In this document: positions 30,166 to 50,750 of the stretch, piece after piece | Position numbering within the stretch: position 1 is the first letter of the stretch | Layout: every line of letters starts with the position of its first letter | Origin: Sinohyriopsis cumingii | Lineage: Eukaryota; Mollusca; Bivalvia; Unionida; Unionidae | Direction of reading: 5' to 3' | Length of the DNA: 64,000 bases | NCBI GenBank assembly: GCA_028554795.2 | Contig: CM068838.1 | Location: 93,730,974-93,794,973, forward strand | Translations under genes and position numbers: made by a program | The notes under the pieces: generated by a model | What the model saw: the letters and a program-made list of their open reading frames with translations, nothing else | Told to the model about the DNA's origin: nothing | Database searches by the model: none

Positions 30166-30181
30166 GGCCCTGAAAAGGGCC
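30166..30181 (-). terminator. Histone-type mRNA 3' stem-loop (left TIR, minus strand)
   Basis: On the minus strand: GGCCCTTTTCAGGGCC followed by AGCCA and, about 9 nt on, the purine-rich CGAAAAGAGAATG. Stem of six pairs with a four-base TTTC loop, as in replication-dependent histone mRNAs. It lies just after the stop of the minus-strand gene at 30,206-30,439. Confidence 0.75.
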
Positions 30182-30205
30182 TTTGGGTTTATGTTAATGT
30201 ATTCA

Positions 30206-30439
30206 TTAACATAAATGGCACCGCATTGGTCTTCTTCTTGTTCTTAGGCTGCGTCTCACTGTTGGCCCGTAAATCAGCACTCTTTTCAGGCATCCTTGTC
30301 TTTCAACGTAGATCCTACGTATCCACAGACTGGTGTTTGTCCTGTGGACAACTGTCCACTTGGATCGGACATACATGAGCATGTCAATCCTAAACATCAT
30401 GGAAGACACAAGGGTGGATGACTCAACTGTGGTCCACAT
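30206..30439 (-). CDS. Small basic Polinton left-end protein, unknown function
   Basis: 77 codons from an ATG at 30,439. The product is rich in Arg and Val, ending in RRSLRTRRRPMRCHLC; no family recognised. Support for being a gene is contextual: a TATA box (CTATAAATAAG, 30,482-30,492, minus strand) lies about 45 bp ahead of the start, and the stop is followed within 25 bp by the histone-type stem-loop of the terminal repeat. It faces outward, mirroring the gene next to the right terminal repeat. It could also be a truncated remnant of a longer gene. Confidence 0.45.
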   Translation of the reverse strand: MWTTVESSTLVSSMMFRIDMLMYVRSKWTVVHRTNTSLWIRRIYVERQGCLKRVLIYGPTVRRSLRTRRRPMRCHLC

Positions 30440-30481
30440 CTTGAAGCGATGAGAACAGGTGAATCAATGCAGTGAACTGCG

Positions 30482-30610
30482 CTTATTTATAGGTAGAGGT
30501 AGGATTGAAACGGATTGAGTTCATTCACCAATCCAAACACGCGTTAAAAAATTCAGTCAGACCGCATCCAATCCGAAGAGAACAGTCTGTGACGTCACGT
30601 GGTCTATATA
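30482..30610. promoter_or_regulatory. Divergent promoter region with two TATA boxes and a CRE-like site
   Basis: Minus-strand TATA CTATAAATAAG at 30,482-30,492 serves the leftmost gene. On the plus strand the palindrome TGACGTCA (30,590-30,597, the CREB/ATF consensus) is followed 6 bp later by TCTATATAGA (30,603-30,612), about 50 bp before the ATG at 30,659. Use of these sites by host factors is inferred. Confidence 0.6.
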
Positions 30611-30658
30611 GATTCGTTAGCGCTTGTGTGCAGTCAATCTATGCGACAGTGATTCAAC

Positions 30659-31237
30659 ATGACGGAAACTCAGAAAACGATCCATTGGGGTGCACCAGCA
30701 GGGGAGACTGCCTAAGGGAACTCGGACTTACTTTCAGAAGAGGTGAATTGGGATTTTGTGGATTTTCTTACCTCACAAGAATTTGTTCTGGAACCTTCGT
30801 TACCTTCTTCATTACCGCAAGTGGAGAATTTTAGACAGAGACAGAAAGAAGAATTGGAGAAATTTATACAACGACAAAAGGAAGCGGAACAAGCTTTTCT
30901 CCTACAGCAACAGCAGCAAGAAGAAGAGGTAAGAAAAAAACAAAAGCAACAACAGCAAGAAGAAGTAGCAGCAAAGAAACAAGAGGGTGAAAATCAAACG
31001 GTCACGGTACTGTTGGACATTTTAGCGGAGTTAAGAAGTCTGAAACAAATGTATCAGACTTCTTTATTACGACCGAAGAGAATACGACCTTCCCGAGCTA
31101 AACACGTTAACCCTGTGACTAAGCCTACCGTACCACCCTTAGTGATTTCAACCCAATCATCATCATCAACATTACGCAGTCCAGAAGTAGGCCTTGGTCG
31201 TGGCAAAGGCTTAAGGCAGTTAAAGTTGATTGTTTAA
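30659..31237 (+). pseudogene. Gln-rich coiled-coil Polinton protein with one premature stop
   Basis: The ATG at 30,659 lies at the right distance from the TATA box. An in-frame TAA follows 18 codons on (30,713-30,715); the same frame then stays open to 31,237. The middle is a charged Gln/Glu/Lys-rich helix (RQRQKEELEKFIQRQKEAEQ, then QQQQQEEEVRKKQKQQQQEE), followed by TVTVLLDILAELRSLKQMY, a leucine-patterned helix, and a basic tail. Predicted coiled coil; no enzymatic motif. A decayed homologue lies at 59.5-60.06 kb, which shows that this is a real, conserved gene of this Polinton lineage. The stop codon is followed 25 bp later by a perfect histone-type stem-loop. Confidence 0.65.
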
Positions 31238-31261
31238 ACTCACCCCACACCAAAATAAAAA

Positions 31262-31302
31262 GGCCCTTTTCAGGGCCACCCACATTTCTCGAAAAGAAAT
31301 AC
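31262..31302 (+). terminator. Histone-type mRNA 3' stem-loop and downstream element
   Basis: AAAAAGGCCCTTTTCAGGGC then CACCCA: six-base-pair stem, TTTC loop, ACCCA cleavage context, all as in animal histone mRNAs. CGAAAAGAAAT at 31,290-31,300 fits the purine-rich histone downstream element that pairs with U7 snRNA. It lies 25 bp after the stop of the Gln-rich gene. Confidence 0.8.
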
Positions 31303-31525
31303 AATTTCAATTTGCCAATAACTCAAAAAACCCACTCATTTTACCCTTATAGTACGTGTCTGTGTATGAGTGCGTGAGTGTAGCTTCTTATTTTAAAATC
31401 AAAACTCAAAAGACACTTACCTTGTATCATTAATTTATTCTTTTCTCCATTTTTTTACAATCCAATTCACAATTCACAACAGAACACTTTAATTAAAAGT
31501 TCATTGACTTCTTCTTTCTCCTTGT

Positions 31526-32134: not shown

Positions 32135-35100
32135 ATGAAACGATCCTATTCATTCGAGAAGAAAGAAGAAGACAGTAAGAGGCAGAAACGTGATCTATCG
32201 CCTCGTACCAGGGCTGAAATCTTGGCACAAATTCATGCCAGTGATTTTGAAGAGGACATGAGTGAACCAGAATCCGAACCCTCTAAACCAAGTTCACCAC
32301 CCTTAGTCAACCCTGAAAAATACTATTCCATTCGAGAGACGGAAAAGCGCTCCTCTAGAAAATTTAGAACCACGGCTTACAAATACACGGTGAAGTTTAA
32401 AGATTTCAAGGCTGAAGTGCCGTTAGAGAAAGCAGAAGTGTTCATCACTGGGGTGTGGGATTCTTTGCTCACCACACTCAAGCGACAATGTCAACCCAAA
32501 GAAGACGATCGCTTGAGACTTTCCATACAACACGACGGTTTGAAATCTCCTGTTTGGATCGAATTTAGCACCCCTGCAGAATTGACCGCTTCCAAAGTCA
32601 TGGACAAGATTCAACACGTACAACAATCTAATGATCAGATTGACTTCACCGATGGTAAAGCCACACTGGACATGACCCACGTCTCTCCTCCTCAAGGAAC
32701 TGGACGCAAAAAGATGTTATTGGTGGACGACCTTCGCAACACCAAAAAGAGTCTCGTCTTAATTAAAAACCCTCATGACCAGATGTGCTTAGCCCGTGCC
32801 ATCGTGGTGGGACGAACCTATGCCAACAAGAACGACACGGTAGAATGGAAAAGAACCTGGAACACTATTCAACGTTCCCATCGAGCCAAACAACGAAACG
32901 AAGCAGAACTCCTGTTGCAACAAGCTGGCCTGTCTAAAGACGCACCCTGTGGCATTCCTGAGATGCAAAAATTGCAAGATGTCCTAGCTCCACGCTACAC
33001 CTTGAAAGTGCACCCTCAAGAAATGCGCGGGCCTCTGTTGTTTCGAGGCCAAGATTTTAAGGATGGAAAATACATTTATGTTTATTATCACGATGACCAT
33101 TTCGATACCATTACCACCATCACTGGATTCCTGGGATACAGATATTACTGTGAGAAATGTGATTATGGTTATAACAATCGAGAGCAACACAAGCATTGTG
33201 GAATGAAATGCCCAGGATGTTTGGCCTCTCCACCCTGTCTGAGCGAAGAACCAGTGCCTTGTTCAACTTGTCTGCGCACGTTTGTCAGCCCTGCCTGTTA
33301 CCAACAACATCTGAAGACGCAAGGTTCACAGCAGAAATGTGCTTGTCAACTCCTGAGATTGTGCCCTACCTGTGGACAAAGCATATGTACCAATACTGCC
33401 AAGGCACACGTATGTCGAGGAAAGAAAAAATGTCACATTTGTCACCACATCGTGGACTTGGAACACCAATGCTATGTGCAAAAATACCAACCCCCACCAG
33501 AGAAAGAGGACGGTCACAAGAAGAAAGGCAATTTCATCTTTTTCGATTTCGAATGCATGCAAGAGACCGGCATTCCCATTCCTAATTTCTGCGTGGCTCA
33601 TCGAGCGTGCGAGAAGTGCATTCAAGAACCTATCTTCAGTCATTGCCCTCACTGAAGCAAGATTCCTGGAGGGCGTGAAAAAATCTTTCGGGGACCGAAC
33701 ACGTTAGCCGATTTTGCCCAATGGGTCTTAGACGTGGAGTCAAGAGGACATCGAACGTTACGGAGATTGTCATCGTCATGCCACGGTGATGGCTCACAAT
33801 TTTTCCGGATACGATGGACAGTTTCTTTTGAGGTACTATACGGAACATGGCACCGAACGTCCTAAAGTGACTTTGAACTGAGCCAAAATCATTTTCATGC
33901 AAATGGGACAAGTACAGTTTAAAGATTCGATGAGCTATTTGGCCATGCCTTTGAGTCGAATGCCTAAAACGTTTGGAATGACAGAAATGGCTAAAGGGTA
34001 CTTTCCACACTTTTTCAATGCGGAAGCCAATCAACACGCCGTTCTACCCCATTTACCTGAGGCTCACTATTACGACCCCGACAACATGCGTACCGAACAA
34101 CGAGAAGCTTTCTACGCTTGGCACCAGGCTCACGCCTCGGACCCTTTCGACTTTCAGGAAGAAATGCTAAAGTATTGTCGTTCCGACGTGGACATTTTAC
34201 GACGTTGCTGTGGAAAATTTCGAGAACTGTTCATGGAACACGGAGGGGTCGATCCTTTGAAAGAAGCTTGCACCATTGCCAAAGCGTGTTCCTTAGTGTA
34301 CCGACAACGATTCATGCCTGAAAACACCGTAGCTGTCATCAGCCCACAAACGACCCACTATGTCAAGCGTCAATACTCGGTCAAAGCCCTACGCTGGTTA
34401 CATTACTTGTGCGACAAGGAAGACAAATGGATTCAGCAAGCCCGCAACGGAGGGGGTAAAAAGACCATCGGAACGTATTCGGTCGATGGCTGGGACTTAG
34501 AAAACCCCAAGATCGTGTACGAGTTTAACGGTTGCTTATTTCACGGATGTCCCGTCTGTTACCCTGACCGTGGCACTAGAAATCAGTTTCTGCAACGAAC
34601 AATGGAAGACTTGTACCAGGACACTTGTCAGCGGCGCCTAAAGTTAGAACAGCAAGGATACCAAGTGGTGGAAATGTGGGAACACGAGTACGATCACCGT
34701 ATGAAAACCGATCCCAAGTTTAAACGCCTCGTGGAAAGTTACCAGTTCATGGACCCGCTGAACCCGAGGGATAGTTTGTACGGAGGAAGGAACAATGCCA
34801 CCTGTTTGCTGTACCAAGCCGACGAAGATAAAGGAGAAGAAATCAAATACTTGGACGTGTGTTCGCTGTATCCTTACGTGTGCAAATATTGTCGCTTTCC
34901 TGTAGGGTACCCACAATTGTTAACGGAACACATCGACCTGAAAAACATTCGACAATACGAAGGCTTGATCAAGTGTAAAGTTTTGCCTCCCACGAACCTA
35001 TACCATCCCGTCTTACCTCACCATTGTCAAGGCAAACTGATGTTTCCCTTGTGCCGTACTTGTACCGAAACGTGCAACCAAGACCAACCTTGTCAGCACA

Positions 35101-36026
35101 CCCAGAAAGAACGCACCCTGACGGGAACCTGGGTCAGCGTAGAATTGTTCAAAGCTCTGGACATGGGATACCAACTGTTAGAAGTGTACGAAATTTGCCA
35201 CTTTCCCAAGACACAACAGTACCACAAGGGTGATCCCAGTCAGAAAAGCATTTTCGCCGACTACGTGGATGCCTTTTTGAAACTGAAACAAGAAGCCAGC
35301 GGCTATCCTTCCTGGTGTCACACTCCCGAAGACCAAATACAATTCAAAAAGAAATACTACGAACAAGAAGGCATCTCTTTAGACCACATCGAAAAAAGCG
35401 AAGGCAGGCGATCGTTTGCCAACGTAATGTTAAATTGCTTGTGGGGTAAAATGGTACAACGACCGTGTTTACCCAAGACGGAATATTTGACAGAACCTTC
35501 CCGCTACTTCCAGATGATTCACGACAAAACCAAATACATGAAACACGTGGACGTCGTTCGTGAGGATTTGATCTTGGTCAATTACGAAGATGATCTGGAC
35601 TTTGTACAAGACGACCCTTTTGGAAATGTCATCATTGCGGCTTACGTGACAGCTCATGCTCGCTTAAAATTGTACGAAGCTTTAGAACTGTTAGGGGAAC
35701 GCGTCCTGTACTTTGACACGGACAGTTGCATTTACATCCATCACCCAATTCAACATCACCCTGACATCGAAGGAGACCGTTTAGGAGCCTGGACAGACGA
35801 GCATCCCGACGACAAGATTCTAAGTTTCGTCAGTGGCGGCCCCAAAAATTACGGCTACGAATACCGAGAGAAACAAGATCGTACGTTTACCCACTCACCA
35901 CATCGTCAGTCGACCCTTGGAAAAAGTCTATCAAATCGTGTACCAGAAGCGAGTGAGACTTCCCAATCACTTTACGTTGCCGTTCGGTCACGTCGGTATT
36001 GGTCTGTATATAAAAAGGAACCCTAG
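32135..36026 (+). pseudogene. PolB: Protein-primed family B DNA polymerase (Polinton pPolB), broken
   Basis: ORF 1 (32,135-33,655) has a basic start, then a Cys/His-rich zinc region (CEKCDYGYNNREQHKHCG onward, about residues 345-455) and ends just after exonuclease motif I, FIFFDFECMQETG. A TGA at 33,653 and a frameshift near 33,740 follow. Exo II-like AHNFSGYDGQF is at 33,791, with a further TGA at 33,882. ORF 2 (33,897-36,026) carries YCRSDVDILRRCC (exo III), YLDVCSLYPYVC (polymerase motif A), NVMLNCLWGKMV (motif B) and VLYFDTDSCIYI (motif C). A last frameshift near 35,880 puts the probable C-terminus in another frame, so the listed end is approximate. It would copy the element using a terminal protein as primer. 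At least four lesions make it inactive. Confidence 0.93.
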
Positions 36027-36071
36027 GCAAGATCGATAGTTCATTGTGACTACCAAGACCGAGCGAACAAG

Positions 36072-36703
36072 ATGAATACTTTCAGAGAAACACAGAACAA
36101 TTTGTTTAGAAAGGCACAATTCAAGTGTGAGGCTTCTGAAGTGGAATGCGATTGTGAGCCTTGCGATGGGTACGATGCTGTACGCTGTGACCTTAGCGAT
36201 GCCGTAAAGCATCATGGGAACTTTAGTGTCACTACCCCATGATGGAAAGGGATGCTGTGCGTGTCAAACCTGAGGGATGCGAAAGTGATGCCGCTCGTCC
36301 TCTTGGACATTTTACTGGGTTTCGTTTTAAAGGGGAATGTTCACCTTCACGTCTACCCCACTACGGATGTCATCCAGACCTGAGCAAACTCCTGCCCATG
36401 TCACTCAACCCTCATCGAAACGAACCTGTGAAAGACGAATATTCGTTTCCTGTGCGTTTGTCGGAATACTGCGACTTTGAAAATCGTCTTCAATCGTTCA
36501 AAGGAAAATGGCCTAAGTATCTGGGAGGACCGACCCCCGAAGAATTAGCCAGAGCCGGATTTTTCTACTTGGGCGAAGGAGATAAAGTCAAGTGCTTCAG
36601 TTGCGGTGTGTCACTTCACCACTGGGAACCGCAATATTCGGCCTACGTAGAACATGCTCGATGGTCACCGAATTGTCATTACTTACCCTTAGTGGGACCG
36701 TGA
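36072..36703 (+). pseudogene. BIR-domain (IAP-type) protein, one frameshift
   Basis: A TATA box (TATATAAAAAGG, 36,007-36,018) places the start at 36,072, where a 56-codon ORF begins; a frameshift near 36,230 leads into the frame that stays open to 36,703. The C-terminal 75 residues are a complete BIR: GFRF and FKGKWPKYLGGPTPEELARA, then AGFFYLGEGDKVKCFSCG, and CFSC-x16-H-x6-C, the exact C-x2-C-x16-H-x6-C zinc site. No RING follows. BIR proteins of baculoviruses and animals bind caspases or other partners and block cell death; a role in protecting the producing cell is inferred. No introns, so it is likely a captured gene used by the element. Confidence 0.8.
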
Positions 36704-36734
36704 CATTGAAGTAACTTCTTACCATAATCTGTTC

Positions 36735-37190
36735 ATGGATACTTTACAAGAGAACATTCGTGCTTTGCCTGTGGAGTTGAGAGAACGCATTTACCCAGAG
36801 CTGGTCAAAATACAAGTGAAACGTAAAGAACAATTGCATCCGTTACTTCACCGGTGTTTGAATCACTGGTACCTGAAGGCTATACAAGGATTGATTCAAT
36901 TGAAAGTGTTCCATCGGACAGACATTGATGAACGATCCTCTAGTTTTAAAAAGGATTGGTTTGTTATGGACGATTCTACCTACATCATAGTAAACTTACT
37001 GCATCGAATTCCAGAGGAAGAGTTAACGAATTACCAACATCTTGAGCACAATATCAACTTAGTGAAAGAGGAAACTTCTGAACGAATTGTAATGTGCAAA
37101 TTAGTAAATAAAGGATTTAAATTCGACACTGAAGTAAAACCTTGTTTGTGCAAACAGTACATTTCTTGTGTCAGACCAAAGAGGATTTAG
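36735..37190 (+). CDS. F-box-like accessory protein, tandem copy 1 (intact)
   Basis: 151 codons. The N-terminus MDTLQENIRALPVELRERIY has the LPxELxxxI pattern of an F-box helix, followed by a basic KIQVKRKEQLHPLL segment. The rest contains HWYLKAIQGLI, LLHRIPEEELTNYQHLEHNI and a Cys-rich end (CLCKQYISCVRP). Two further copies follow directly, so it belongs to a recently amplified family. An F-box would link substrates to a ubiquitin ligase, but the similarity is short; treat it as a suggestion. It starts 32 bp after the BIR gene. Confidence 0.6.
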   Translation: MDTLQENIRALPVELRERIYPELVKIQVKRKEQLHPLLHRCLNHWYLKAIQGLIQLKVFHRTDIDERSSSFKKDWFVMDDSTYIIVNLLHRIPEEELTNYQHLEHNINLVKEETSERIVMCKLVNKGFKFDTEVKPCLCKQYISCVRPKRI

Positions 37191-37202
37191 TATGACCTAT
37201 TC

Positions 37203-37475
37203 ATGGATACTTTGCTAGAGAACATTCGTGCTTTGCCTGTGGAGTTGAGAGAACGCATTTACCGAGAACTGATCAAAATACAAGTGAAACGCAAACGCAA
37301 AGTGATTCAACCGTTTTTAAATTATGCTCTGTTCCAAAGTACAAGAAGACTGATTATGAGTGGATATTACATCAGACACAAAGTTAAACGAGGCTATTGG
37401 CCACCACCCAACGATTCCAAAAACAGTGTATATACTTATGGATACTTTACAAGAGAACATTTTGGGCTTGCCTGA
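37203..37475 (+). pseudogene. F-box-like accessory protein, tandem copy 2 (truncated)
   Basis: The first 35 residues (MDTLLENIRALPVELRERIY) are nearly identical to copy 1 at both DNA and protein level. It then diverges (FLNYALFQSTRRLIMSGYYI) and is cut short: its last codons are the start of copy 3 read in a different frame (ending GYFTREHFGLA). The pattern indicates an unequal exchange or deletion between copies. Confidence 0.6.
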
Positions 37476-37936
37476 GGAGTTGAGAGAAAGGATTTTAGCG
37501 AAAGCTGGTGAAAATACAAGTGAAACGTAAAGAACAATTGCATCCGTTACGTCACCAGATCTTTAACCACTGGTACCTGAATAATATAAAAGGACTGATT
37601 CGTCAGAAATTTTTTCAGTGGTCAGACCTTGTTGAACACTTTCAGTTTGGGGATGATGATGGACTAGACGTTCGTAATTTTGGTTACTTCGAGATTCACT
37701 TACTGCAACGCACTGAGGAAGACGAGTTAAAGGATTACCAACATTTGTTACATGGAATCTGCTTAGAAAAAGACGAAACATCTAGAAAAACTCTGACGTT
37801 TCAGTTACAGTATGTAACATTTAAATTCCCTACTGGAGAACGAACATGTTTGGTTAGAAATTACCTTTATTGCTTCCGAAACAAAGACACTATAAAATCA
37901 AGTTGCCATGCCACGGATTATGTCACATATTATTGA
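37438..37936 (+). pseudogene. F-box-like accessory protein, tandem copy 3 (frameshift)
   Basis: The ATG at 37,438 opens MDTLQENILGLPEELRERIL. A one-base change near 37,502 shifts the frame, and the rest (KIQVKRKEQLHPLRHQIFNH, HWYLNNIKGLIRQKFF, LLQRTEEDELKDYQHLLHGI) is open to 37,936. It is alignable with copy 1 along its whole length. Its end overlaps the start of the next gene at 37,908. Confidence 0.6.
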
Positions 37937-38633
37937 ACAGATTCCGTGGAAGGTACTCAATGACCATATTCAAACCGTGGATCATTACCATCAATTATTA
38001 CAAGAACTGTATCCATTCAATTTGGGACGACAAGTGGTGTGTGTCTTAGTGACTTGTTTTCTGGGATTTCGTTTACCAGCCGATTCTTTGTGGACTCTTT
38101 ACGATCAGTACTTACCACCTCAATGGCCTTAAATGGTCACGAAAAACTCCTTTTGCTCAAAGCCTTGCGTTTTCATCTGGATACTTCTCGACCTCAACAG
38201 GAAAAAAAGATTCGTCAACTTTTAGCTACCCAAGACGTGTATGACGATGTGTGTGTAGTTTGTGACTTACATCCCCATTGGACAGATGTCCGTGCCTGGA
38301 AAGAATGGGGTTTTGAGGCTTGGACCCAAGAAGTGGCCCAGTATGCACGAGAGTTGTTCAAGGAAAAAAGTTACTTTTCAACCCGTGTTAGTGACGGTGC
38401 CAGAAGAACCCGTCACCCAGGACGGAACTGTCGTGGACAGGCCTGAAAGACCCTTTCGGGAGGACACTTGTGTGACCTTACCCCCTACTATAGAACTGGT
38501 TAGAACATTACCCAAAACATATGGTTGTACAGACACTTGTTTTTATTCCACGTTAATGGTTATCATGTGCCTTTTATTCTTGTACTTAAGCCTTTGGCTT
38601 TTATGTATTTTTGTCTTTCGTATTCATGTTTGA
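37908..38633 (+). pseudogene. Unknown Polinton protein with C-terminal membrane segment, two frameshifts
   Basis: Three overlapping open frames read in succession: 37,908-38,132 (start MPRIMSHIIEQIPWKVLNDH), then a frame visible from about 38,130 to 38,400 (HEKLLLLKALRFHLD, CVVCDLHPHWTDVRAWKEWG), then one to 38,633 with EEPVTQDGTVVDRPERPF and a hydrophobic end (STLMVIMCLLFLYLSLWLLC). The order suggests a single protein of about 240 residues anchored by a C-terminal transmembrane helix. No family recognised. The 3' end is followed by AATAAA (38,649). That these frames form one gene is inference. Confidence 0.45.
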
Positions 38634-38725
38634 AAAAAAAAACCATTCAATAAACGTGTTCTGAAAAAGTATATAAACTCTTGTCTTGTTTGTTTTTTCG
38701 TGTCACAAGTGACATTTCTCACACT

Positions 38726-41523: not shown

Positions 41524-41581
41524 GAGAAAAAGAGTAGCATCCTCCAAGAGTGGGTGCCTTATTAACACACAAACACAAAAA

Positions 41582-42691
41582 ATGGAAAAAGTCTTAGCCA
41601 GCATTTACTACGATCCCTCGCATCCTGCAGGTTACGCAGGAGTTTAAAAATTGTATCGTGCTGCCAAAACGCGACTGAAAAGTCTCCGTTTACCTCAAGC
41701 GCAACGATGGTTACAAGAACAAGCTACCTACACTTTACACAAACCCATTCGACGCAAGTTTGCCAGAAGTCGCACCCGAGTGGAAGGCATCGATCATCAA
41801 TGGCAAGCCGATTTAGCCGATGTCTCTCATTTGGCCAGCTACAGTCGTGGCTACAAATATTTGTTTTGTGTCATCGACGTCTTTTCCAAATTTGCCTGGG
41901 TCGTGCCCTTGACTTCCAAATCCAGCAGCGAGTTAGTGCGAGCCCTGCAACGGGTGTTGAAACAAAGCGGTCGTCACCCTCTTCGATGGCAAACGGACAA
42001 AGGCACCGAATTTCTGAACCAAGCTTTCCAAAAAGAATTAAAGAAACGTGACATTCATTTTTTTACCACCGAGAATCCCGAAACCAAAGCCAGCATCGTG
42101 GAACGTTTTCAACGCACTTTGAAAGAACGCATGTCGAAATATTTTACGCATCACCACACTCTGAAGTACATCGACATCTTACCGCACCTGGTGCAAGCGT
42201 ACAACCAATCTTACCATCGAAGCATCGGACGTGCCCCGCAAGACGTGACTCCCGAGAACGAAGTGCTGGAGTTTGAGCGCCTGTTTGGTACGTCCCCGAC
42301 GAGGGCTGTCCCCAAGAAAAGTGGAGAGTTGACAGTAGGAGATTGGGTGCGCATTGGCAAAACCAAACGCACTTTCGGCAAAGGTTACTTACCTAACTGG
42401 ACGACAAAATTGTTTCGCGTCACTGGACGAGTGCATGGCCGTCATCCTGCCGTCTATAAATTGGAAGACATGAACGGAGAAGTACTCAAAGGAACGTTTT
42501 ATTTGCCCGAGTTACAACGTGTCACCAAAAAAGAAGACGACGTGTACGACATCGAAAGCATTCTCGAACGCAGAACCCGTAAAGTGGGCAAACGACGTGT
42601 CAAAGAAGTCAAAGTACGCTGGAAAGGATATCCGCCCAGTTTTGATTCTTGGATCGACGCTTCGCAAGTCATCGACTATAAAAAGAAGTGA
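41582..42691 (+). pseudogene. Polinton rve integrase with chromodomain, one nonsense codon
   Basis: The ATG at 41,582 opens MEKVLASIYYDPSHPAGYAG, the conserved N-terminus of Polinton integrases. An in-frame TAA at 41,645-41,647 interrupts it, after which the frame is open for 347 codons to 42,691. The rve core has WQADLADVSHLASYSRGYKY (first Asp), RWQTDKGTEFLNQAF (second Asp) and ETKASIVERFQRTLKERM (Glu), about 35 residues after the second Asp. After a linker with an SH3-like part (VGDWVRIGKTKRTFGKGY) comes a chromodomain, VYDIESILERR and VKVRWKGYPPSFDSWIDA. Chromodomains can steer insertion toward marked chromatin. Restart downstream of the stop would lose only about 23 residues, but normal start is lost. 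Confidence 0.92.
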
Positions 42692-42696
42692 CCATC

Positions 42697-43110
42697 ATGC
42701 CCTTTCACACAGCAGACGCAGCTACGTCGACCACTCCTTCTTCACCTAGTTCTTCTGTGCAAGATTTACAAAAACAACCCTTGTGGGTGTGGTGTGGAGA
42801 ACGTGTGGCTAAAACGCAAATCGTCTTTTTCTGCCAAATCTTCGTGGTGCATTGTGTCATCGGGGCAGCCATCGCCAATTTAAGTTTGCAACAAGGAGAC
42901 AAACAATTGTGGACCATTTTATTGAGCAGTTGCATCGGTTACCTGCTTCCCAATCCCTCCCTGAAATTCTCCTCGAACGGGAACCTTGTGTCCAGTGCCA
43001 GTGTCAGTCACCACTCCAACAACAACCACAATCAGAACCCCGTTTTAGACGGAGACACGCCTCTGACGTCCAGTAACCCCTCGGACAGCCACAGAACTCT
43101 GGAATTATGA
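42697..43110 (+). CDS. Small two-helix membrane protein, unknown function
   Basis: The ATG at 42,697 (MPFHTADAATSTTPSS) is used; an in-frame ATG lies 9 bp upstream. About 137 residues: Ser/Thr-rich N-terminus, then RVAKTQIVFFCQIFVVHCVI and GAAIANLSLQQGDKQLWTIL, LLSSCIGYLLPNPSLKF, giving two hydrophobic segments with a short polar loop, and a Ser/Asn-rich tail. The KxQIxFFCQ...NLS...LLSSxxGYxLPNP layout recurs in Polintons beside the integrase. TATAAAAAG at 42,677 overlaps the integrase end and is only 20 bp before this ATG, so it probably does not set the start. It overlaps the next gene by four bases. Confidence 0.6.
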   Translation: MPFHTADAATSTTPSSPSSSVQDLQKQPLWVWCGERVAKTQIVFFCQIFVVHCVIGAAIANLSLQQGDKQLWTILLSSCIGYLLPNPSLKFSSNGNLVSSASVSHHSNNNHNQNPVLDGDTPLTSSNPSDSHRTLEL

Positions 43111-44039
43111 GTCACCGAAACCAATTTTACTTAACCTTACCCAGTGACAGTTCCATGGAGGTGTTTCCCAACAACACGTTGTGCTGTTACACGGCCAAAT
43201 TACCTCAGGCCATCCCCTTAGATCACGAAGCCCATTGGGAAGTGGCTTTAGTAGAAATGATTCACCCGACCCAAGTCCTCAATGTCCTTCCCAATCAAAA
43301 TTTTTTTAAGGTGGAAGTTAATGACGAGCAATTGCAACAGGAATTGAATAAGAGAGCCATGTCTGACATTAAAACCTATAATGTGAAAACTAAAACGTGG
43401 ACCTACCACTTGTCCATTCTCTCAGGCTATTATTTTAGTGGTCATCATTTGGTCAGCGCCATAGCCTCCAGGTTTAATGGAGTGTTTGGGAAAGCTTTTG
43501 AGAATGTCAACAACAAAAGTGTCACCATGGAGTACCACAAAGTAGCTCGTCGCTTCTCGATGAAATTTGACCTGAGTAAAATCGTGTCCATTTTATTTTG
43601 TCCTGAATTGTTTGACATGTTGGGCGGAGACATGGAGATGAGAAAGAAATTTGATCAAAAAGGTGAGCAAGTAATCATTTACGACAACGAGTCTTTTGCC
43701 AAGTATTTTCGTACCCCGGTAGAACTGAATCAAGGACTGAATTTGATCTTTGTGTATTCCGATGTGGTGGAGTACAACGTGGTGGGACACACCTCCGTAC
43801 CGTCACTGCGTGTCAATCCTTTCAAAGTGGATTCTGCCACGAACGCTGACGAGGAAGGTGGAAACACTTACCACGTCCACCGCGAATTTGTCCATCCTCA
43901 CTATTTGCCGGTCAGCAAGTCGTATTTGGATACGGTCAACATTACTATAAAAGGAGATTTGGGACAAAATATTCCATTCACCAAAGGAAAAGTCACGGTG
44001 AAACTCCATTTTCGAAAACGGTTCTCTCACGACTCGTAA
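43107..44039 (+). CDS. Minor capsid protein (penton-like), intact
   Basis: 310 residues with no lesion. It opens with NQFYLTLPSDSSMEVFPNNT, the characteristic start of the Polinton minor capsid protein, followed by HWEVALVEMIHPTQVLNV, SGYYFSGHHLVSAIASRF and, near the end, KSYLDTVNITIKGDLGQNIP. The predicted fold is a single jelly roll forming the vertex (penton) pentamers that close the icosahedral shell. It sits in the standard order before the pVI-like, major capsid and protease genes; the ATG overlaps the previous stop region by 4 bp, suggesting tight packing. Confidence 0.9.
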   Translation: MSHRNQFYLTLPSDSSMEVFPNNTLCCYTAKLPQAIPLDHEAHWEVALVEMIHPTQVLNVLPNQNFFKVEVNDEQLQQELNKRAMSDIKTYNVKTKTWTYHLSILSGYYFSGHHLVSAIASRFNGVFGKAFENVNNKSVTMEYHKVARRFSMKFDLSKIVSILFCPELFDMLGGDMEMRKKFDQKGEQVIIYDNESFAKYFRTPVELNQGLNLIFVYSDVVEYNVVGHTSVPSLRVNPFKVDSATNADEEGGNTYHVHREFVHPHYLPVSKSYLDTVNITIKGDLGQNIPFTKGKVTVKLHFRKRFSHDS

Positions 44040-44042
44040 GTC

Positions 44043-44469
44043 ATGTATCCAGTGTACCGAGGGGTTGCTCGACAGCGAGGACACGGTTTAGGAGATATGC
44101 TGAAATCGGCCTTTCGTTCGGTGGCCCCAGTGTTGAAACCGATGGTGACACGCGGATTGCACGCCTTGAAAGATGCGGAACTGACGCAAGGCAAAGAATT
44201 TCTCCAAAATGTCATCATCGACAAGCAAAACCCTAAAGAAGCCTTCATGAGGGCTGGCAAAAATGTCTTGCTGCAAATTGCTGCAAACGGGCAAAGACAT
44301 TTTAGGCCGACGAGACACACCTATAAATGCCCTGCACGCTACCGAGTCAGGCATTCAGCAAGGACAAGGCAGAAAGAGACGACGAAGAAAACACCCTTTC
44401 ACCAGACTTCAAGCGAGAAAGGCCAAGAAAAGAAGAACCGTTCGAGACTTAGACGTTTTCGATTATTGA
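44043..44469 (+). pseudogene. pVI-like minor virion protein, one frameshift
   Basis: It starts MYPVYRGVARQRGHGLGDML, then a helical part (SVAPVLKPMVTRGLHALKDA) and AFMRAGKNVLLQIA. A frameshift near 44,270 moves to the frame with TGKDILGRR and the basic end GRKRRRRKHPFTRLQARKAK, stopping in DLDVFDY at 44,469. RQRGHGLGD and the basic tail are seen in short proteins placed between penton and hexon genes of Polintons and adintoviruses, comparable to adenovirus protein VI, which binds inside the capsid and disrupts membranes. TATAAAAGG at 43,945-43,953 lies 90 bp upstream. Function is inferred from place and pattern. Confidence 0.6.
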
Positions 44470-44485
44470 GAAAGAACAGAACAAA

Positions 44486-45789
44486 ATGATGCACCGAGAG
44501 TCTTGCGCCTGTTCCAAGACGGAACTGGATCTGTTTGCCATGCCCCCCACGATGATGACGATGCAAGAATCCCAGTGGGTGGAATTTCACCCCGTCTCCT
44601 CATTGACCGATTCCGCTCCCATCGAGTTTGAAATCAAAGGACAACCCGAAGATTACATCGATCTGACTAGCAGTTACTTGTACTTGAAAGTCAAAGTTCT
44701 AGATAAGGATGATGGTGGAGTAGATCACACTGAGAATATAGCTCCCGTCAACAATTTCATGCATTCCTTGTTCAGCTCAGTGGATTTGTACTTGAATAAC
44801 AAACTAGTCAGCAGCAGCATGGATACTTACCCTTACCGTGCCTACCTGGAAAATCTCTTGACGTACGGAATAGATGCCAAGGATACTCATCTCAATGCCT
44901 GTGTGCTGTGGGAACCTGACGAAGCGACCAAGTTCGACACATTGGATGGAAGCAATTCCGGCTTTGAGCAAAGAGAAAGCAAAATCATAGAAAAGAAGAG
45001 TTAGAACTGATGGATCGTTTGCATTTGGACATGTGGTTGCAATATAAATATTTGCTGAACGGGGTGAATGTCCGCTTGAGACTGAATCGCAGCAGTACCG
45101 CTTTCCATTTGCTGGCTGATCCTGCTAAGGCTCCTAAAAGCAATATCGAAGAGGCCAAACTCTACGTACGACGCGTGGAAGTGTTACCCAAAGTGGGAAA
45201 CGACATCAGTCAAACGTTGAGCAGAACGACCGCCATGTATCCCATACGACGTGTGGAAGTGAAAACGTTCACCATTCCCAAGGGACAGCATTCTATGATC
45301 GAAGATCATCTGTTTCAAGGACAGTTACCCAAGCGTTTAATCCTTGGTATGGTCTCGAATTCAGCCTTCAACGGAGCCTTCGCTGAAAATCCTTTCAACT
45401 TTCAACACTTCAACGTAAAGAAAATCGAAGTCAGTCGCGATGGCAAGACCTTGTGTACCCGACCTTTCGAACCTGACTTTAGTGACAAGAAGATGAATTA
45501 CTTGAGATCGTACTTGTCCCTGTACGAAGCCACCGGCCAGTTAGGAACCAACACCAGTCACGGCATTACGTACGACGAGTATGCAGGAGGCTATGCTTTG
45601 TGGGCTTTCGATTTCACTCCAGACCAAGGCAGCGACGAGGGACATTTCCACCCTATAAAATCCGGCCAGATTCGTGTGGAACTTCAGTTTGCAAAAGAAC
45701 TACCAGCGACAGTGAACGTCATCCTGTATGCAGAATTCGATAATACCATAGAAATCAACAGTTTGAGAGAAGTCATTCTAGATTATTAG
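44486..45789 (+). pseudogene. Major capsid protein (double jelly roll), one frameshift
   Basis: Two ORFs (44,486-45,004 and 45,010-45,789) together give the normal length of about 430 residues. The first has ELDLFAMPPTMMTMQESQWV, IEFEIKGQPEDYIDLTSSYL and NNFMHSLFSSVDLYLNNKLV, and the second begins LHLDMWLQYKYLLNGVNVRL, all landmarks of the Polinton hexon-like capsid protein. The second jelly roll ends in FDNTIEINSLREVILDY. A single-base change at about 44,990-45,005 causes the frameshift (stop at 45,002). This protein would build the trimeric capsomers. Capsids would be lost in this copy unless supplied by another. Confidence 0.92.
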
Positions 45790-45794
45790 AAGCC

Positions 45795-46301
45795 ATGGAA
45801 GACTGTTATCCCTCTTTACCTAGTGGAGAAACTTTGGACATGAAATGTGAGGAGACCGTGGAAGGAGAAGAATCTCAAGATAAAGACGAAGAAGTTGTCA
45901 TGATGAAGTCGAGATGGCCAGAACAAGAAGCCCATTTCGTCTCCTGTTTTGCCAAACACTTGGTCGAAAAAATGACGGAATTGATCAAGAAAAATTGTTA
46001 TGGATGTCAAAACGATCATCCCAGTCAAATTCAACACGATAAATGCCTAATGTTAAGTCAAGAAGAAAAATTGGACGAGTATCTGGACGAAGCTTGGAGT
46101 CTCATCTCGAACAAAGACGTGTTGCACCAGTGGTATAAAGACTTGCGTGAACATTCTTGTCCACCATTAACCACTCAAGAGATCCATCGTATCGAAGCTC
46201 TCCTGAATCAGAGTGAGGAAACAGAACGAATAACCGTTTATTCGTCAGACATTTTCAAGCAAAACGCCAGGATCGAATTGACGACTTATTATTACGTGTG
46301 A
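45795..46301 (+). CDS. Conserved Polinton protein with CxxC-H-H-C motif, unknown function
   Basis: 168 residues, intact. An acidic N-terminus (GEESQDKDEEVVMMK) precedes a helical part (FAKHLVEKMTELIKKN) and the motif CYGCQNDHPSQIQHDKCLML, which could bind a metal. The end is EETERITVYSSDIFKQNAR. The same YGCQxDHPSQxxHDxCLM motif is seen in Polinton proteins next to the capsid gene. The start is 6 bp after the capsid stop. The role is not known; a virion or assembly function is likely from position. Confidence 0.65.
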   Translation: MEDCYPSLPSGETLDMKCEETVEGEESQDKDEEVVMMKSRWPEQEAHFVSCFAKHLVEKMTELIKKNCYGCQNDHPSQIQHDKCLMLSQEEKLDEYLDEAWSLISNKDVLHQWYKDLREHSCPPLTTQEIHRIEALLNQSEETERITVYSSDIFKQNARIELTTYYYV

Positions 46302-46327
46302 AGAAGAAAAAAAGCACACACAAATCA

Positions 46328-46876
46328 ATGGATACCTGGGAACTTTATTACCTTTTGAACCACAGTTCGTATACGGCTTCTTGGAATCCTGTCGTCTGTG
46401 CTAAAGATAAACTCCCTCATCGCAAACCTAAAGACCATCAAGCTTACGTGATCAACACGGACGACAGTCATCTCCCAGGAACCCACTGGGTAGTCGTCTA
46501 CTTTCCTCGAGAAGGATGTGTGGAATATTTCGATTCGTACGGATTGCCCCCTTTGGAAGACGATATCATTGACTTTATGAGAAGAAATGCTCAAACCACC
46601 CGATTCAATAATGTGAAATTACAAGGCACAGATTCCTTGGTGTGTGGACAGTACTGTGTGTATTTTCTGCATCATCGCAGCCTAGGCTATTCCTTAGAAC
46701 ATTTAGTGACTCATTTTCATCCTCGTTCTTCTTCTAGAAACGATGTGAAAGTAGATCGATGGTTTTGTGACCATTATGCTTATCTTTTGTCTCAAGCTAG
46801 GAAACGTAGTGTCCATCAATGGCCTAATGACTTCCAACAGTGGAAATCACAACGTTGTCAGCCCTGTTTAAAGTAG
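46328..46876 (+). CDS. PRO: Adenain-like cysteine protease, intact
   Basis: The start at 46,328 (MDTWELYYLLNHSSYTASW) is preferred to the in-frame ATG at 46,298 because the extra residues are only KKKKSTHKS-type. 183 residues. Catalytic His in PGTHWVVVYFPREG, acidic partner in YFDSYGLPP, and the Gln/Cys pair in DSLVCGQYCVYFLHHR are in the order of the adenovirus-type (C5/Ulp1-like) protease. It would cleave capsid and core precursors during maturation. It ends the capsid gene block; a polyadenylation signal AATAAA at 46,985-46,990 follows. Confidence 0.9.
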   Translation: MDTWELYYLLNHSSYTASWNPVVCAKDKLPHRKPKDHQAYVINTDDSHLPGTHWVVVYFPREGCVEYFDSYGLPPLEDDIIDFMRRNAQTTRFNNVKLQGTDSLVCGQYCVYFLHHRSLGYSLEHLVTHFHPRSSSRNDVKVDRWFCDHYAYLLSQARKRSVHQWPNDFQQWKSQRCQPCLK

Positions 46877-47115
46877 ACTGTAAATTGAAAAAAATGTTAG
46901 TGATTTGAAACAATTGTTTGATGTTATATTGTTGGATTATTGTTAAAAATGTTAGAGTTGTTGTTTAGTGTTAAGTGATTTTTGAATAAAAAATGTTGTG
47001 TTTTGAAAAAATGACTTTGTCTTTTGTTTAGCTAGAAGAATGTTGGATTGATGCTCTTTCACTTCTTACTATCCCTCTCATGTCACTCATTGAACGTTAC
47101 GGCTCGAAAACCGTG
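46877..47115. other. Spacer with polyadenylation signal
   Basis: T/A-rich spacer after the protease gene with AATAAAAAATG at 46,985, the likely 3' end for the capsid-block transcript. No histone-type stem-loop here, in contrast to the genes further right. Confidence 0.6.
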
Positions 47116-47155
47116 TGGGGGATGTTTTCCTTCACGTCCGCGCTTTGACTTTAAG
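47116..47155 (+). promoter_or_regulatory. Shared right-end promoter module, copy 1
   Basis: GGGG then ATGTTTTCCTTCACGTCCGC and GCTTTGACTTTAAG. The 20-base core recurs at 47,987, 48,652 and (one change) 50,002. Here the TATA position reads CTTTAAG, weaker than in the other copies. It lies about 60-90 bp ahead of the ATG at 47,210. Confidence 0.65.
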
Positions 47156-47209: not shown

Positions 47210-47566
47210 ATGTGCTCCAAACTAGCTAAGCTCAACGAAGCCTACGTGAATTTGCATAGGGTCGGACACAGTCTGATACCGAAGCCAGAAGAAATAGAGA
47301 ATGTGAGAATGTTAAAAGTCACTGAAGACCTGATAGAAGAGCTCTTCAGAGAAGAAATGAACAGGGAAAAAGAAGAATGGACAGAGAAGTACAGACTTCA
47401 GAGACAGCAGCAACAGCAGCAACAACAACAGCAGCAGCAACCTGAAGCTGACAGAGGCTTTGTCGATTGTCGTATCGACACCAAAGAGTTCTTCTTCTCT
47501 TTCCGAAGAAGCAGACCTATCGCCAGAAAGTCTATCCTCAGAGGACATCGCATTCTTATAAACTAA
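47210..47566 (+). CDS. Right-end accessory protein A (charged, polyGln), unknown
   Basis: The start at 47,210 (MCSKLAKLNEAYVNLHRVGH) is chosen because it follows the shared promoter module; the frame is open further upstream but would begin before the promoter. 118 residues: helical VTEDLIEELFREEMNREKEE, a run of about thirteen Gln (CAG/CAA repeats at about 47,405-47,442), then EADRGFVDCRIDTKEFFFSF and a basic end. Probable coiled coil. No family recognised. It is followed 28 bp after the stop by a histone-type stem-loop, and its downstream spacer is repeated after gene B, so A and B are duplicated units. Confidence 0.55.
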   Translation: MCSKLAKLNEAYVNLHRVGHSLIPKPEEIENVRMLKVTEDLIEELFREEMNREKEEWTEKYRLQRQQQQQQQQQQQQPEADRGFVDCRIDTKEFFFSFRRSRPIARKSILRGHRILIN

Positions 47567-47594: not shown

Positions 47595-47635
47595 AGCCCT
47601 TTTCAGGGCTACCCAATACTCTAGAAAAGAAATAA
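47595..47635 (+). terminator. Histone-type mRNA 3' stem-loop after gene A
   Basis: AGCCCTTTTCAGGGCTACCC: six-pair stem, TTTC loop, ACCCA, then CTAGAAAAGAAATAAC about 10 nt downstream, fitting the histone downstream element. Confidence 0.8.
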
Positions 47636-47982
47636 CGATAAATGTGCCAATGTGTGTAGGTAGAGTAGTGTGAATATAAACACTAACTCTTTTTTAAAAA
47701 ATGTGAGGGTATGTGTTTGTGTGTTTGTGTGTTTGTAAGTGCTCACGTACGTTGGTATGGATAGTAGATTAAAATGATGTTTGTTTGTTTTTTGGCTGTT
47801 AGAGGTGTAGATTTGGGGTTAGATTGGATTTCTTTGCGTATGTGGATAGTCTATTGAAGTGAGTTATAAAAAATTTTAAAATAGTAATGGGTACCATAAA
47901 AAAGTGAGTGAGTGTTTCTTTTAGGTCCGCGCGTTGTTGTATTTTTTGGTCATGATCTAGGTAAGATCAATTTTATCTTTTT
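47616..47982. repeat. Spacer repeated after gene A and gene B
   Basis: The blocks GTGTGTAGGTAGAGTAGTG, TATAAACACTAACTCTTT and a GTGTTTGT-rich stretch recur at 48,467-48,560. At 47,924-47,960 GTCCGCGCGTTGTTG and GGTCATGATCTAGGTAAGA occur, repeated at 48,668-48,699. These are remnants of tandem duplication of whole gene units. Confidence 0.7.
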
Positions 47983-48022
47983 AGGGAATGTTTTCCTTCA
48001 CGTCCGCGCTTTCACTATAAAT
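47983..48022 (+). promoter_or_regulatory. Shared right-end promoter module, copy 2, with TATA box
   Basis: ATGTTTTCCTTCACGTCCGC at 47,988-48,007, then GCTTTCACTATAAATTG with the TATA box at 48,014-48,020, about 55 bp before the ATG of gene B. Confidence 0.7.
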
Positions 48023-48073: not shown

Positions 48074-48382
48074 ATGAATAGCAGAATAAGCAAACTTCTT
48101 GAACTCCAGATACATCTGGAATATGTCAGGCGCCTGTTAAATGAACTGGCCGCGGAGGCTATAGTAGAAGAGGAAAGAATAAAGAAGGAAGAGGAGGAGA
48201 GAAGACAGAGGGAAGAGGAGGAAAAGAAAATAGGAGAGAGGATGTCGTACAATATTCCCGAGACAGAGGATTGGGGTGTTGAAGCGAATCATGCTCCCTC
48301 TGCGCTCCCCAGAAGAAAGGTGAAAGGAGACTGGGGAATAAGATGCGTGTGTGGCGCCAGGCCAGGAAGGTGCCATCATTAG
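48074..48382 (+). CDS. Right-end accessory protein B (coiled coil), unknown
   Basis: 102 residues. MNSRISKLLELQIHLEYVRR is followed by a strongly charged helix (EEERIKKEEEERRQREEEEK) and ERMSYNIPETEDWGVEANHA; the end has CVCGARPGRCHH, a possible small metal site. Intact, with module and TATA box upstream and a histone-type stem-loop 28 bp downstream. The product resembles protein A only in layout (short N-terminal helix plus charged coiled coil). Function unknown. Confidence 0.55.
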   Translation: MNSRISKLLELQIHLEYVRRLLNELAAEAIVEEERIKKEEEERRQREEEEKKIGERMSYNIPETEDWGVEANHAPSALPRRKVKGDWGIRCVCGARPGRCHH

Positions 48383-48409: not shown

Positions 48410-48450
48410 AGCCCTTTTAAGGGCTACCCAATACTCTAGAAAAGAAATAA
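48410..48450 (+). terminator. Histone-type mRNA 3' stem-loop after gene B
   Basis: AGCCCTTTTAAGGGCTACCC: same six-pair stem, loop TTTA instead of TTTC, ACCCA, and CTAGAAAAGAAATAAC downstream. Confidence 0.75.
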
Positions 48451-48647
48451 CCATCAATTTGCCAATGTGTGTAGGTAGAGTAGTGTGAATATAAACACTA
48501 ACTCTTTATTCATAGTGAGAGTGTATGTGTTTGTGTGTTTGTGTTTGTAAATGCTCAAGTAAGTTTGTGTGAATAGTAGTTTCTTTATTGTTTCTTAGCG
48601 TATGTGGAGAGTATAGTTTGGGTTTTATTATATGATATGAGAAAAAG

Positions 48648-48699
48648 TGGGGATGTTTTCCTTCACGTCCGCGCGTTGTTTGGTCATGATCTAGGTAAG
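48648..48699 (+). promoter_or_regulatory. Shared right-end promoter module, copy 3 (no gene behind it)
   Basis: GGGG and ATGTTTTCCTTCACGTCCGC, then GCGTTGTTTGGTCATGATC and TAGGTAAGA, directly followed by the LINE-derived insertion. It has no TATA box and no gene of its own; it matches the composite at 47,924-47,990. Confidence 0.6.
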
Positions 48700-49979
48700 A
48701 GGACCACAACCACATAACCCTAACTGCTACCACTGCAGGGTCCCAGAAGACATAGAGCATATTTTTAACAACTGCCATACACTTGAAAAAGAAAGGGCTA
48801 AGTTTAAAGTTAAGCAGCATAAAATTTGATCCCCTACAACATACCCAGAATTCTTGATGAACACAAACCCCAATATTAATCTAACATTCAAAAATATCAT
48901 AAGTTTTATACACGAATCCAATCTACTCAAAAAAATCTAAGAAAGTAAATCAAAGACCAGTTAAAAATATAACAAATCACTGTTTGGGAATTATGACGGC
49001 CGGCTCGGTCTCGTGGGTTCACAGACTGACACAGCCGTTCATAGCCCGAATAATAAAAACCAGTTAAGGACGAATATTACAAAATCACTGTTTGGGAATT
49101 ATGACGGCCTGATAGGTCTCGTAGGTTCACAAACTGACACAGCCGTTCATACCCCGAATAATAAAAACCAATTAAGGCCACAAAAAATTAAAATAGGAAA
49201 ATAGGAATTAATTAAAACAGGACTCCATAATAACATACAAACAACCATAAAAACAAGTTTTCATTCCAAACCAATAAGATAGGGAATCAAAATAAATAAG
49301 GAATTGATGAATAAAAAAAAAAAAAAAAAAAAATACTCCTAACCGTCTCCTTGTCTCTTAAACAACATCTGGCTGAACTTTTAAATCAAGCTTCCACAGC
49401 TATTTCTACTAACATACTCAGCCAAATCCAGGCAATGTTGGCAGACGACACTGAAAAATTTGAAACTTCCACGCTGGCAGCGGCCCTGGAAGTATCATCA
49501 TCCAGCGGCGATGAAGCTGATGAACCTGCACCACCTAAACAGAGTGGAAAAAAGGAAGGCTCTGTCTACCGGAATATCGGACTGGGAAAGGCAATTGATG
49601 ATATCAAAAAAGCGGGCCACTTCGTCAATGCCACAAGACCGGGTGTCCTAATGTGACCTCATCGCTGCCGACCAATCGTGGCGGGAGTCACATACTGCTT
49701 GGTTTGACACCTGGGGCATTTCAATCCAAATAAGAAACACGAGTGTGTGGTGTGACTATTCCCACTCATGTCTATTAGCCTTTCAGTCAGGTTGTTAAGG
49801 ACTAGTTAGTCCTACACCTGAGTGGCTAAATTAAAAAGTACTCTTTGAGTACATAAAAGCCTGGGGGATGAGGCTCCTTTTCCTTCCCCCAGGAGTAATT
49901 AAAAATCACGCAGTGCGTGAATAAAAAAGTGGTACATGTTCAAAAGAACGAAAACCACTATAATCCAACTAACTAACTA
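48700..49979 (+). mobile_element. LINE-derived insertion inside the Polinton
   Basis: The junctions are visible by comparison with 47,943-47,985: TAGGTAAGA is followed there by TCAATTTTATCTTTTTAGGG, whereas here 1.28 kb intervene before CAATTTTATGTTTTTTAGGG. The left part encodes YHCRVPEDIEHIFNNCHTLE, the C-terminal knuckle of a LINE reverse transcriptase, followed by a 3' region ending in about 20 A (49,314-49,334). The right part (49,335-49,979) has a 101-codon ORF (49,351-49,656, SSSSGDEADEPAPPKQSGKK, unassigned) and ends CTAACTAACTAAC, a LINE-like tail, so two 3' fragments may be present. Confidence 0.65.
48974..49189. repeat. Two tandem 108-bp units in the LINE 3' region
   Basis: AAATCACTGTTTGGGAATTA recurs at 48,974 and 49,082; both units continue with TATGACGGCC and CTGACACAGCCGTTCATA and end in AATAATAAAAACCA. 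A few substitutions separate them. Confidence 0.9.
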
Positions 49980-49996
49980 ACAATTTTATGTTTTTT

Positions 49997-50037
49997 AGGG
50001 GGATGTTTTCCATCACGTCCGCGCTTTCAGTATAAAA
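49997..50037 (+). promoter_or_regulatory. Shared right-end promoter module, copy 4, with TATA box
   Basis: GGGGGATGTTTTCC, then ATCACGTCCGCGCTTTCAG and TATAAAA (50,031-50,037), about 55 bp before the ATG at 50,089. Confidence 0.7.
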
Positions 50038-50088
50038 CTAACAGTGTTGGCCATTGGAGCCCATTCTACGGAATAAGCAAACAAGAAG

Positions 50089-50691
50089 ATGCCAGCAGCT
50101 TCAGCTTTATACAACGATCTTATGGGAAGTTGGTATTGGATGGTGGATGGATTGAGTGTAGCAGAAAGGGTTGAACAGGAATGGAGGTATGCAGTGACAA
50201 AAGACTTCGTCTCAAGACAAGTAACCAGCCTCCACTTATCCGTAAATATTGTAAAAGAAATGATAGAGGATGAGGAGAAGAGAATCAGAGGTTTAATTAA
50301 CCCACCATATGTGAAAGTGGGTAAGTTAAAAGAAGCGATAGTTCATGTGACGAGTGCAAATTGCTTTCTAGAAGACATTGTAGAATGGACAGATTGGTGT
50401 TTCGCGAAGTAGGGGTTAGACAAACTTAAGAAAGCGGAAGAAGTAATGAGGAATGTGCTGACCGAAGAGGTCAAGAAGATCAAAGAAAAGTGGTCAAAGG
50501 AAAGAAAAGAAGAAGAAAATAGAAAAAAAAAAGGAAGAACTAGAAAAACTAAACGCAAACTGGATGAAAATCCAAGAGAAGTTCCGGGCCATGGTTCACC
50601 CGAACTGGATGCCGGAAACAGAAATGAAGAAGAAGAAAGGAATGATGGACAAAATAAGAGGATGGTGGAAGAAGTTAAGAAGTTAGAAGAA
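50089..50691 (+). pseudogene. Right-end accessory protein D, one stop and one frameshift
   Basis: 107 codons (MPAASALYNDLMGSWYWMVD, YVKVGKLKEAIVHVTSANCF) end in a TAG at 50,410-50,412; the same frame continues with EEVKKIKEKWSKERKEEENR. An A-run at about 50,523-50,532 then shifts the natural frame, which appears to go on as KLNANWMKIQEKF and IRGWWKKL to about 50,691. It is the outermost gene on the right and reads toward the terminal repeat, whose stem-loop starts within 20 bp. Charged coiled-coil protein of unknown role. Confidence 0.5.
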
Positions 50692-50709
50692 GAAGAAGAA
50701 AAACCCAAA

Positions 50710-50750
50710 GGCCCTTTTCAGGGCCAGCCATATTTCTCGAAAAGAGAATG
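50710..50750 (+). terminator. Histone-type mRNA 3' stem-loop (right TIR)
   Basis: AAAGGCCCTTTTCAGGGCC then AGCCA, followed by TCGAAAAGAGAATG. It is the mirror of the left-repeat stem-loop and serves gene D. Confidence 0.75.

Follow-up and report, generated by a model that had tools for sequence, protein, structure and literature searches.

Histone-type mRNA 3′-end modules follow the end genes of a Polinton in the bivalve Sinohyriopsis cumingii

Replication-dependent histone mRNAs of animals are non-polyadenylated and carry a stem-loop and a purine-rich U7-binding element, with recognition of the stem-loop tied to S phase, according to the available text of one account (PMC5011920), and a bivalve example of histone-type mRNA ends appears in the available text of another (PMC6210712). 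A bracovirus-encoded histone H4, described in the accessible part of PMC12819152, is likewise an animal DNA virus gene touching host histone regulation, but it is itself a histone gene, whereas the genes considered here are non-histone genes with histone-type mRNA ends. They belong to an element in a 64,000-nucleotide stretch of the Sinohyriopsis cumingii genome (assembly GCA_028554795.2, contig CM068838.1, positions 93,730,974 to 93,794,973), hereafter the window. The element shares with Polintons (Mavericks) and adintoviruses its terminal inverted repeats, 6-bp duplication, type B polymerase, ATPase, and core block. Outside that block lie five short end genes, the divergent gMinus and gene A on the left and acc47, acc48, and acc50 on the right, each followed by a module that resembles the 3′ end of replication-dependent histone genes (RF00032) in its six-pair stem with G-C as second pair, its four-base loop, its tail, a GAAAAGA element 8-9 nt past the tail, and a position 23-38 nt past the stop. 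Unlike those histone genes, the genes of the element encode no histones and reside on mobile DNA. A literature search found, within the available text of its sources, no paper on histone-type 3′ ends in Polintons or adintoviruses, nor any on their use by non-histone genes in mobile DNA. The RNA element itself is of a known kind, and these comparisons suggest that the novelty lies in its use by the non-histone genes of a Polinton.

Modules behind the end genes of the window

The modules have a single layout at all five sites: a six-pair stem, a TTTC or TTTA loop, ACCCA or, in the two terminal repeats, AGCCA, then 8 nt and GAAAAGA (Table 1). This agrees in positions and in composition with a first-pass annotation made from the letters of the window, which had placed the purines about 10 nt downstream and the sites 20-30 bp past the stops of short accessory genes; the measured gaps between stop and stem are 24 nt for gMinus and gene A, 28 for acc47, 27 for acc48, and 23 for acc50. 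Both strands of the 64 kb were scanned with a pattern of six stem pairs, a TTYN loop, and a tail like ACCCA; the scan returned exactly these five sites, and 200 first-order resampled windows gave a mean of 0.185 and a maximum of two, which rules out a chance origin. All five sites are therefore real, although the two in the terminal repeats copy one sequence and the distinct module sequences number four. With the Rfam Histone3 model (RF00032, gathering score 34 bits), only the gene A site exceeded the gathering score (41.2 bits at 31257-31301), followed by both terminal-repeat sites at 33.9 bits, 48405 at 31.6, and 47590 at 31.0, with E-values over the five sites from 9.6e-9 to 6.4e-5.

The end genes are short open reading frames (ORFs), intronless from inspection of their open frames. 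As the annotation had held, none encodes a histone: a Pfam scan gave no histone family at E-values up to 1, and histone-like proteins are thereby ruled out. The annotation needs correction for the right-end gene, whose reading frame is broken in the window copy, though the frame that stops at 50686 fits. An ATG-initiated ORF at 50446-50751, in another frame than that stop, passes through the stem-loop.

No stem-loop was found within 250 nt of the stops of 17 core and middle ORFs in the window. The annotation was right on this point, but its companion claim, that AATAAA signals occur after the core genes instead, applies to just two of these 17 stops within the same 250 nt. The window copy of gene A, an end gene, has an AATAAA just 5′ of its stem-loop.

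Table 1. Positions of the Polinton features and histone-type modules in the window
Feature	Position	Strand	Details
gMinus	30206-30463	-	open frame, 85 codons, basic C-terminus
gene A	30716-31237	+	open frame, closely preceded by an in-frame stop in the window copy
acc47 ORF	47210-47566	+	
acc48 ORF	48074-48382	+	
acc50, right-end gene	50089-50686	+	frame-broken: ORF 50089-50412 and open frame 50462-50686
gMinus module	30146-30181	-	stem-loop 30181-30166, AGCCA 30165-30161, GAAAAGA 30152-30146
gene A module	31262-31297	+	stem-loop 31262-31277, ACCCA 31278-31282, GAAAAGA 31291-31297
acc47 module	47595-47630	+	stem-loop 47595-47610, ACCCA, GAAAAGA 47624-47630
acc48 module	48410-48445	+	stem-loop 48410-48425, TTTA loop, ACCCA, GAAAAGA 48439-48445
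acc50 module, right terminal repeat	50710-50745	+	stem-loop 50710-50725, AGCCA, GAAAAGA 50739-50745
decayed module, outside the Polinton	60119-60154	+	one pair broken; 3′ of a gene A relic
left terminal inverted repeat	29911-30195	.	arms 29911-29991, 29986-30101, 30096-30195; innermost part is the stem-loop module
right terminal inverted repeat	50696-50974	.	adjoins the CACGGC duplication at 50975-50980
core and middle block	32135-46876	+	type B polymerase, BIR, Pox_A32-like ATPase, chromodomain

Modules in Polinton copies, host histone genes, and relatives

A Histone3 search of the 2,904,868,851 bases of the S. cumingii genome gave 589,472 first-look candidates, 75 of which received a score. 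All 75 lie above the gathering score and inside Polinton copies; none is a host histone gene, and no stem-loop among them follows a core gene. The fetched loci hold 106 stem-loops, every one in sense orientation behind an end gene or a variant of one, so that the enrichment in related copies to which the first-pass annotation pointed is borne out. Of these, 93 follow end genes recognized by tblastn (37 gMinus, 31 gene A, 12 acc50b, 10 acc48, and 3 acc47), and the other 13 were assigned through reading, 12 to a variant right-end gene whose C-terminus is mostly RSWWRNRRN or similar and one to an acc47 end.

Because the 75 loci were picked by their Histone3 score, their stem-loops are no random sample, and to avoid circularity we counted separately the end genes that had brought no locus in. 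The strict motif follows 27 of these 34 independent genes (9 gene A, 7 gMinus, 4 acc47, and 14 acc48), and the remaining seven, judged by eye, depart from it by one or two changes. As a core control, 12 stretches deeper in the right ends provided 30 core-gene 3′ ends (10 MCP, 11 PRO, 8 ORF46301, and 1 penton), with the motif within 200 nt of none of them. In the same stretches, 10 of 11 acc47 ends have the motif, the eleventh being degenerate as judged by eye, and one of the 11 has a poly(A) hexamer. AATAAA or ATTAAA is found at 9 of the 11 PRO ends and at none of the 19 other core ends. In both tests, tblastn matches that stopped short of the 3′ end or had too little 3′ sequence were left out. 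Both are free of the selection by score, yet they cover one element family at loci near Histone3 matches, and since the acc47 genes of loci L091, L092, and L093 are those of L029, L036, and L038, the two acc47 counts are not additive.

Across the 106 copies, AAAAG starts 9 nt past the tail in 103. TTTC forms the loop in all but one, which has TTTA; 95 copies have an ACCCA tail and six an AGCCA tail; and G-C is the first pair of the stem in 89, A-U in 13, G-U in one, and A-C in three. Mean pairwise differences were compared among stem-loop, purine element, and 8-nt spacer in genes chosen without the motif. They were 0.065, 0.019, and 0.268, respectively, for acc48, 0.057, 0.000, and 0.181 for gene A, and 0.016, 0.000, and 0.152 for gMinus (tail, 0.179), so that, of the three parts compared, the spacer diverges most in each of these genes. 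In 14 rows hand-picked for variety, the first pair is GC in seven and AU in seven with none broken; of 500 shuffles, two reached the covariation score of these rows, 81 their number of pairs changed on both sides, and all 500 their number of pair types, so that just some of the covariation measures lie above the shuffled level.

The histone genes of the host are arranged in tandem, in arrays whose unit measures about 8.3 kb (Pfam Histone; 150 scored among 662 candidates). In one unit (L130), H3, H4, H2B, H2A, and H1 lie on one strand, the gene names being assigned by reading, and each gene has a perfect stem-loop 27-38 nt past its stop. The stem-loop is GGCCCT-TTTT-AGGGCC in H3 and H4, the loop is TTTC in H2B and TTTA in H2A, and H1 has the variant stem GGTCCT-TTTC-AGGACC. 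AAAAG begins 9 nt past the tail in H3, H4, and H2B and 10 nt past it in H2A and H1. The string CTAGAAAAGA is present in H3, H4, and H2B and likewise in acc47 and acc48, CGAAAAG in H2A and likewise in gene A and the terminal repeats, and a third block, near CAATTTTGCC, is common to the host H2A 3′ flank and the element. The strict motif missed all host histone signals because the host tails differ; the signals were recovered through sequence reading and Rfam, which gave 35.9-37.7 bits at 8 of 8 loci scanned (8 of 30 fetched).

Gene A has 19 relatives among proteins, with 62-96% identity and a conserved C-terminus, and gMinus has two, with 78% identity; the closest relative of gene A, P0121, reads on where the window copy has its in-frame stop near the start. 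One relative of each gene lacks a stop, so that its translation shows the DNA beyond: P0133, a relative of gene A, ends in ...IQWPISGPPTSLEKRYYVNCQFQ and P0141, a relative of gMinus, contains ...TQKPFSGPLTLLENIYYVNCQ..., where the other frame of the window across the gene A signal reads KRPFSGPPTFLEKKYNFN. These read-through tails encode the module, and stem-loop and purine element are therefore present in both relatives. The codons of P0133 are consistent with a six-pair stem, short of proof, and those of P0141 imply a first-pair mismatch like that in three of the 106 genome copies. Another gene A relative, P0131, and a gMinus relative, P0140, may be a pair on one contig, both having a longest contig of 1455 bases.

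In IMG/VR, no relatives turned up for penton, for the ATPase (searched as protein and as alignment), or for gene A. Two IMG/VR motif scans returned six and four stretches: none of the six contigs matched at any Rfam cutoff, and of the four, read by script, one had five of six pairs and three had three pairs. The phage collection gave no match, and neither did Histone3 at E-values up to 1 on loci L007 and L008. The latter, a mussel-symbiont assembly contig with a Polinton piece, has a weak twister ribozyme match at 15841-15905 (28.9 bits, gathering score 67.2). Like this contig, two relatives of the ATPase, one bearing the name of a limpet (P0120) and one that of a clam symbiont (P0005), point to a probable molluscan host.

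Two proposed 3′-end programs and their alternatives

The modules stand close behind the stops, are conserved among the copies and in two relatives, are missing from the core genes, and resemble the ends of all five host histone genes. From this we predict that the end-gene mRNAs are probably cut by the host U7/SLBP machinery rather than polyadenylated, which would tie their expression to DNA synthesis. Host SLBP would bind the stem-loop, and host U7 would pair with the GAAAAGA purine element and guide cleavage past the ACCCA or AGCCA tail. The resulting mRNAs would lack poly(A), be stable only while DNA is copied, and be shut off when copying stops. The core-block genes would have ordinary poly(A) 3′ ends, giving one Polinton two 3′-end programs, a replication-coupled one at its ends and a poly(A) one in its core. 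That an entire family of animal Polintons has such two-track 3′ ends, with end genes expressed in S phase only through the histone pathway and core genes polyadenylated, is a broader proposition toward which we lean with less assurance.

Several observations weigh against this two-program interpretation. Poly(A) hexamers are found at just 9 of the 30 core ends, every one of them at the protease gene. The host tails are ACACA in H3, ACAAA in H4, ATACA in H2B, ACACA in H2A, and ACTTT in H1, none of them the ACCCA of 95 of the 106 element copies. Rfam U7 gave no match in the host genome among 65 scored of 801,960 candidates, and no control genome matched. The distant mussel Polinton piece of L008 has no Histone3 match, and the four acc47 copies of the divergence set show no clear pattern (stem-loop 0.000, purine element 0.057, and spacer 0.050). 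AATAAA precedes the stem-loop in 11 of 31 gene A copies and 2 of 12 acc50b copies, and it occurs within 150 nt past the tail in 16 of 105 copies, slightly above the background of 239 of 2250 random stretches from the same loci. With AATAAA near part of the copies, the end genes may also use poly(A). As to the tails, ACCCA is nearer the general animal form than are those of the host.

The AATAAA signals near part of the gene A copies speak for an alternative in which the histone-type end works, but mainly to give strong expression or stability independent of poly(A), or in parallel with polyadenylated ends, and does not confine expression to S phase. Poly(A) signals are also cited for Mytilus H1 "orphon" genes in the available text of PMC6210712. 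We consider this alternative unlikely, for no AATAAA stands between stop and stem-loop in gMinus (0/37), acc48 (0/10), the acc50 variants (0/12), or acc47 (0/4).

Far less likely is that the element carries the motif as a repeat at the DNA level, belonging to the terminal repeats and serving replication or packaging, rather than as an RNA signal. Two of the five window sites do lie innermost in the terminal inverted repeats, but the other three lie outside them, the first stem pair varies among the copies, and the modules match host histone ends. A terminal-repeat artifact or DNA repeat is rejected for the sampled loci, where all 106 stem-loops follow gene stops in the sense direction and the gene-less occurrence considered by the first-pass annotation was not seen. 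Least probable of all, and barely credible, is that a host histone 3′ end was picked up by accident and multiplied along with the element without being of use to it: the block near CAATTTTGCC shared with the H2A 3′ flank makes descent from a histone gene plausible, but in four distinct modules at five genes the spacer varies and stem, tail, spacing, and purines are preserved, the module is kept in relatives at about 73-78% protein identity, and the differing tails show that it is no recent copy of the histone ends of this host.

Gene content, surroundings, and significance

The window Polinton spans 29911-50974 (21,064 bp) and is flanked at both ends by the 6-bp target duplication CACGGC (29905-29910 and 50975-50980), and the main arms of its terminal inverted repeats are 95-98% complementary. 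Pfam identified DNA_pol_B_2 (E 1.9e-34), Pox_A32 (E 2.3e-7), and a chromodomain in an integrase-like ORF (E 3.8e-8); the putative penton, capsid, and protease ORFs, so labeled in part from their position, had no Pfam match. The copy is decaying, its polymerase and capsid ORFs being fragmented. The Polinton also carries a BIR (inhibitor-of-apoptosis) domain gene at 36239-36703 and, at 36735-37637, short genes in tandem duplication that start with MDTLQENIRALPVELRERIY. A LINE-like open frame at 28964-29855 adjoins the left terminal repeat, and a similar one lies upstream of H3 in a host histone locus (L100, 1-669). Beyond the Polinton, the decayed module of Table 1 corresponds to a sixth, mutated Histone3 match at 60114-60158 (26.6 bits, E 0.0027); around the gene A relic and its stem-loop (59540-60160), no Polinton remainder is recognizable.

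AlphaFold2 models were uninformative for gMinus (mean pLDDT 44.7) and gave gene A a long helix with disordered ends (mean pLDDT 71.1). The divergent layout of these two genes recalls divergent histone gene pairs, and the intergenic stretch that they have in common (30463-30716) contains CCAAT-like and TATA-like motifs. Before the right-end genes, a promoter-like block, GATGTTTTCCTTCACGTCCGCGC, occurs at 47105-47155, 47971-48021, 48636-48686, and 49986-50036, often with TATAAA or TATAAG after it, and the fetched genome loci contain 39 more copies of its core. Two of these blocks are separated by about 1.3 kb (48690-49980) of what resembles an insertion, the corresponding distance in other copies being ~67 nt; this stretch includes a 96-nt direct repeat (48974-49069 and 49082-49177).

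More than 100 stem-loops behind non-histone genes of a virus-like element thus bear the histone 3′ module. If the interpretation as two 3′-end programs is true, the end genes would be the first non-histone gene set known on the histone mRNA pathway, and the Polinton the first virus-like element known to borrow it. If their mRNAs are processed in this way, the end genes would escape poly(A)-selected RNA data, a mobile element would have coupled part of its genes to DNA replication, and the timing of Polinton activity would become directly testable.

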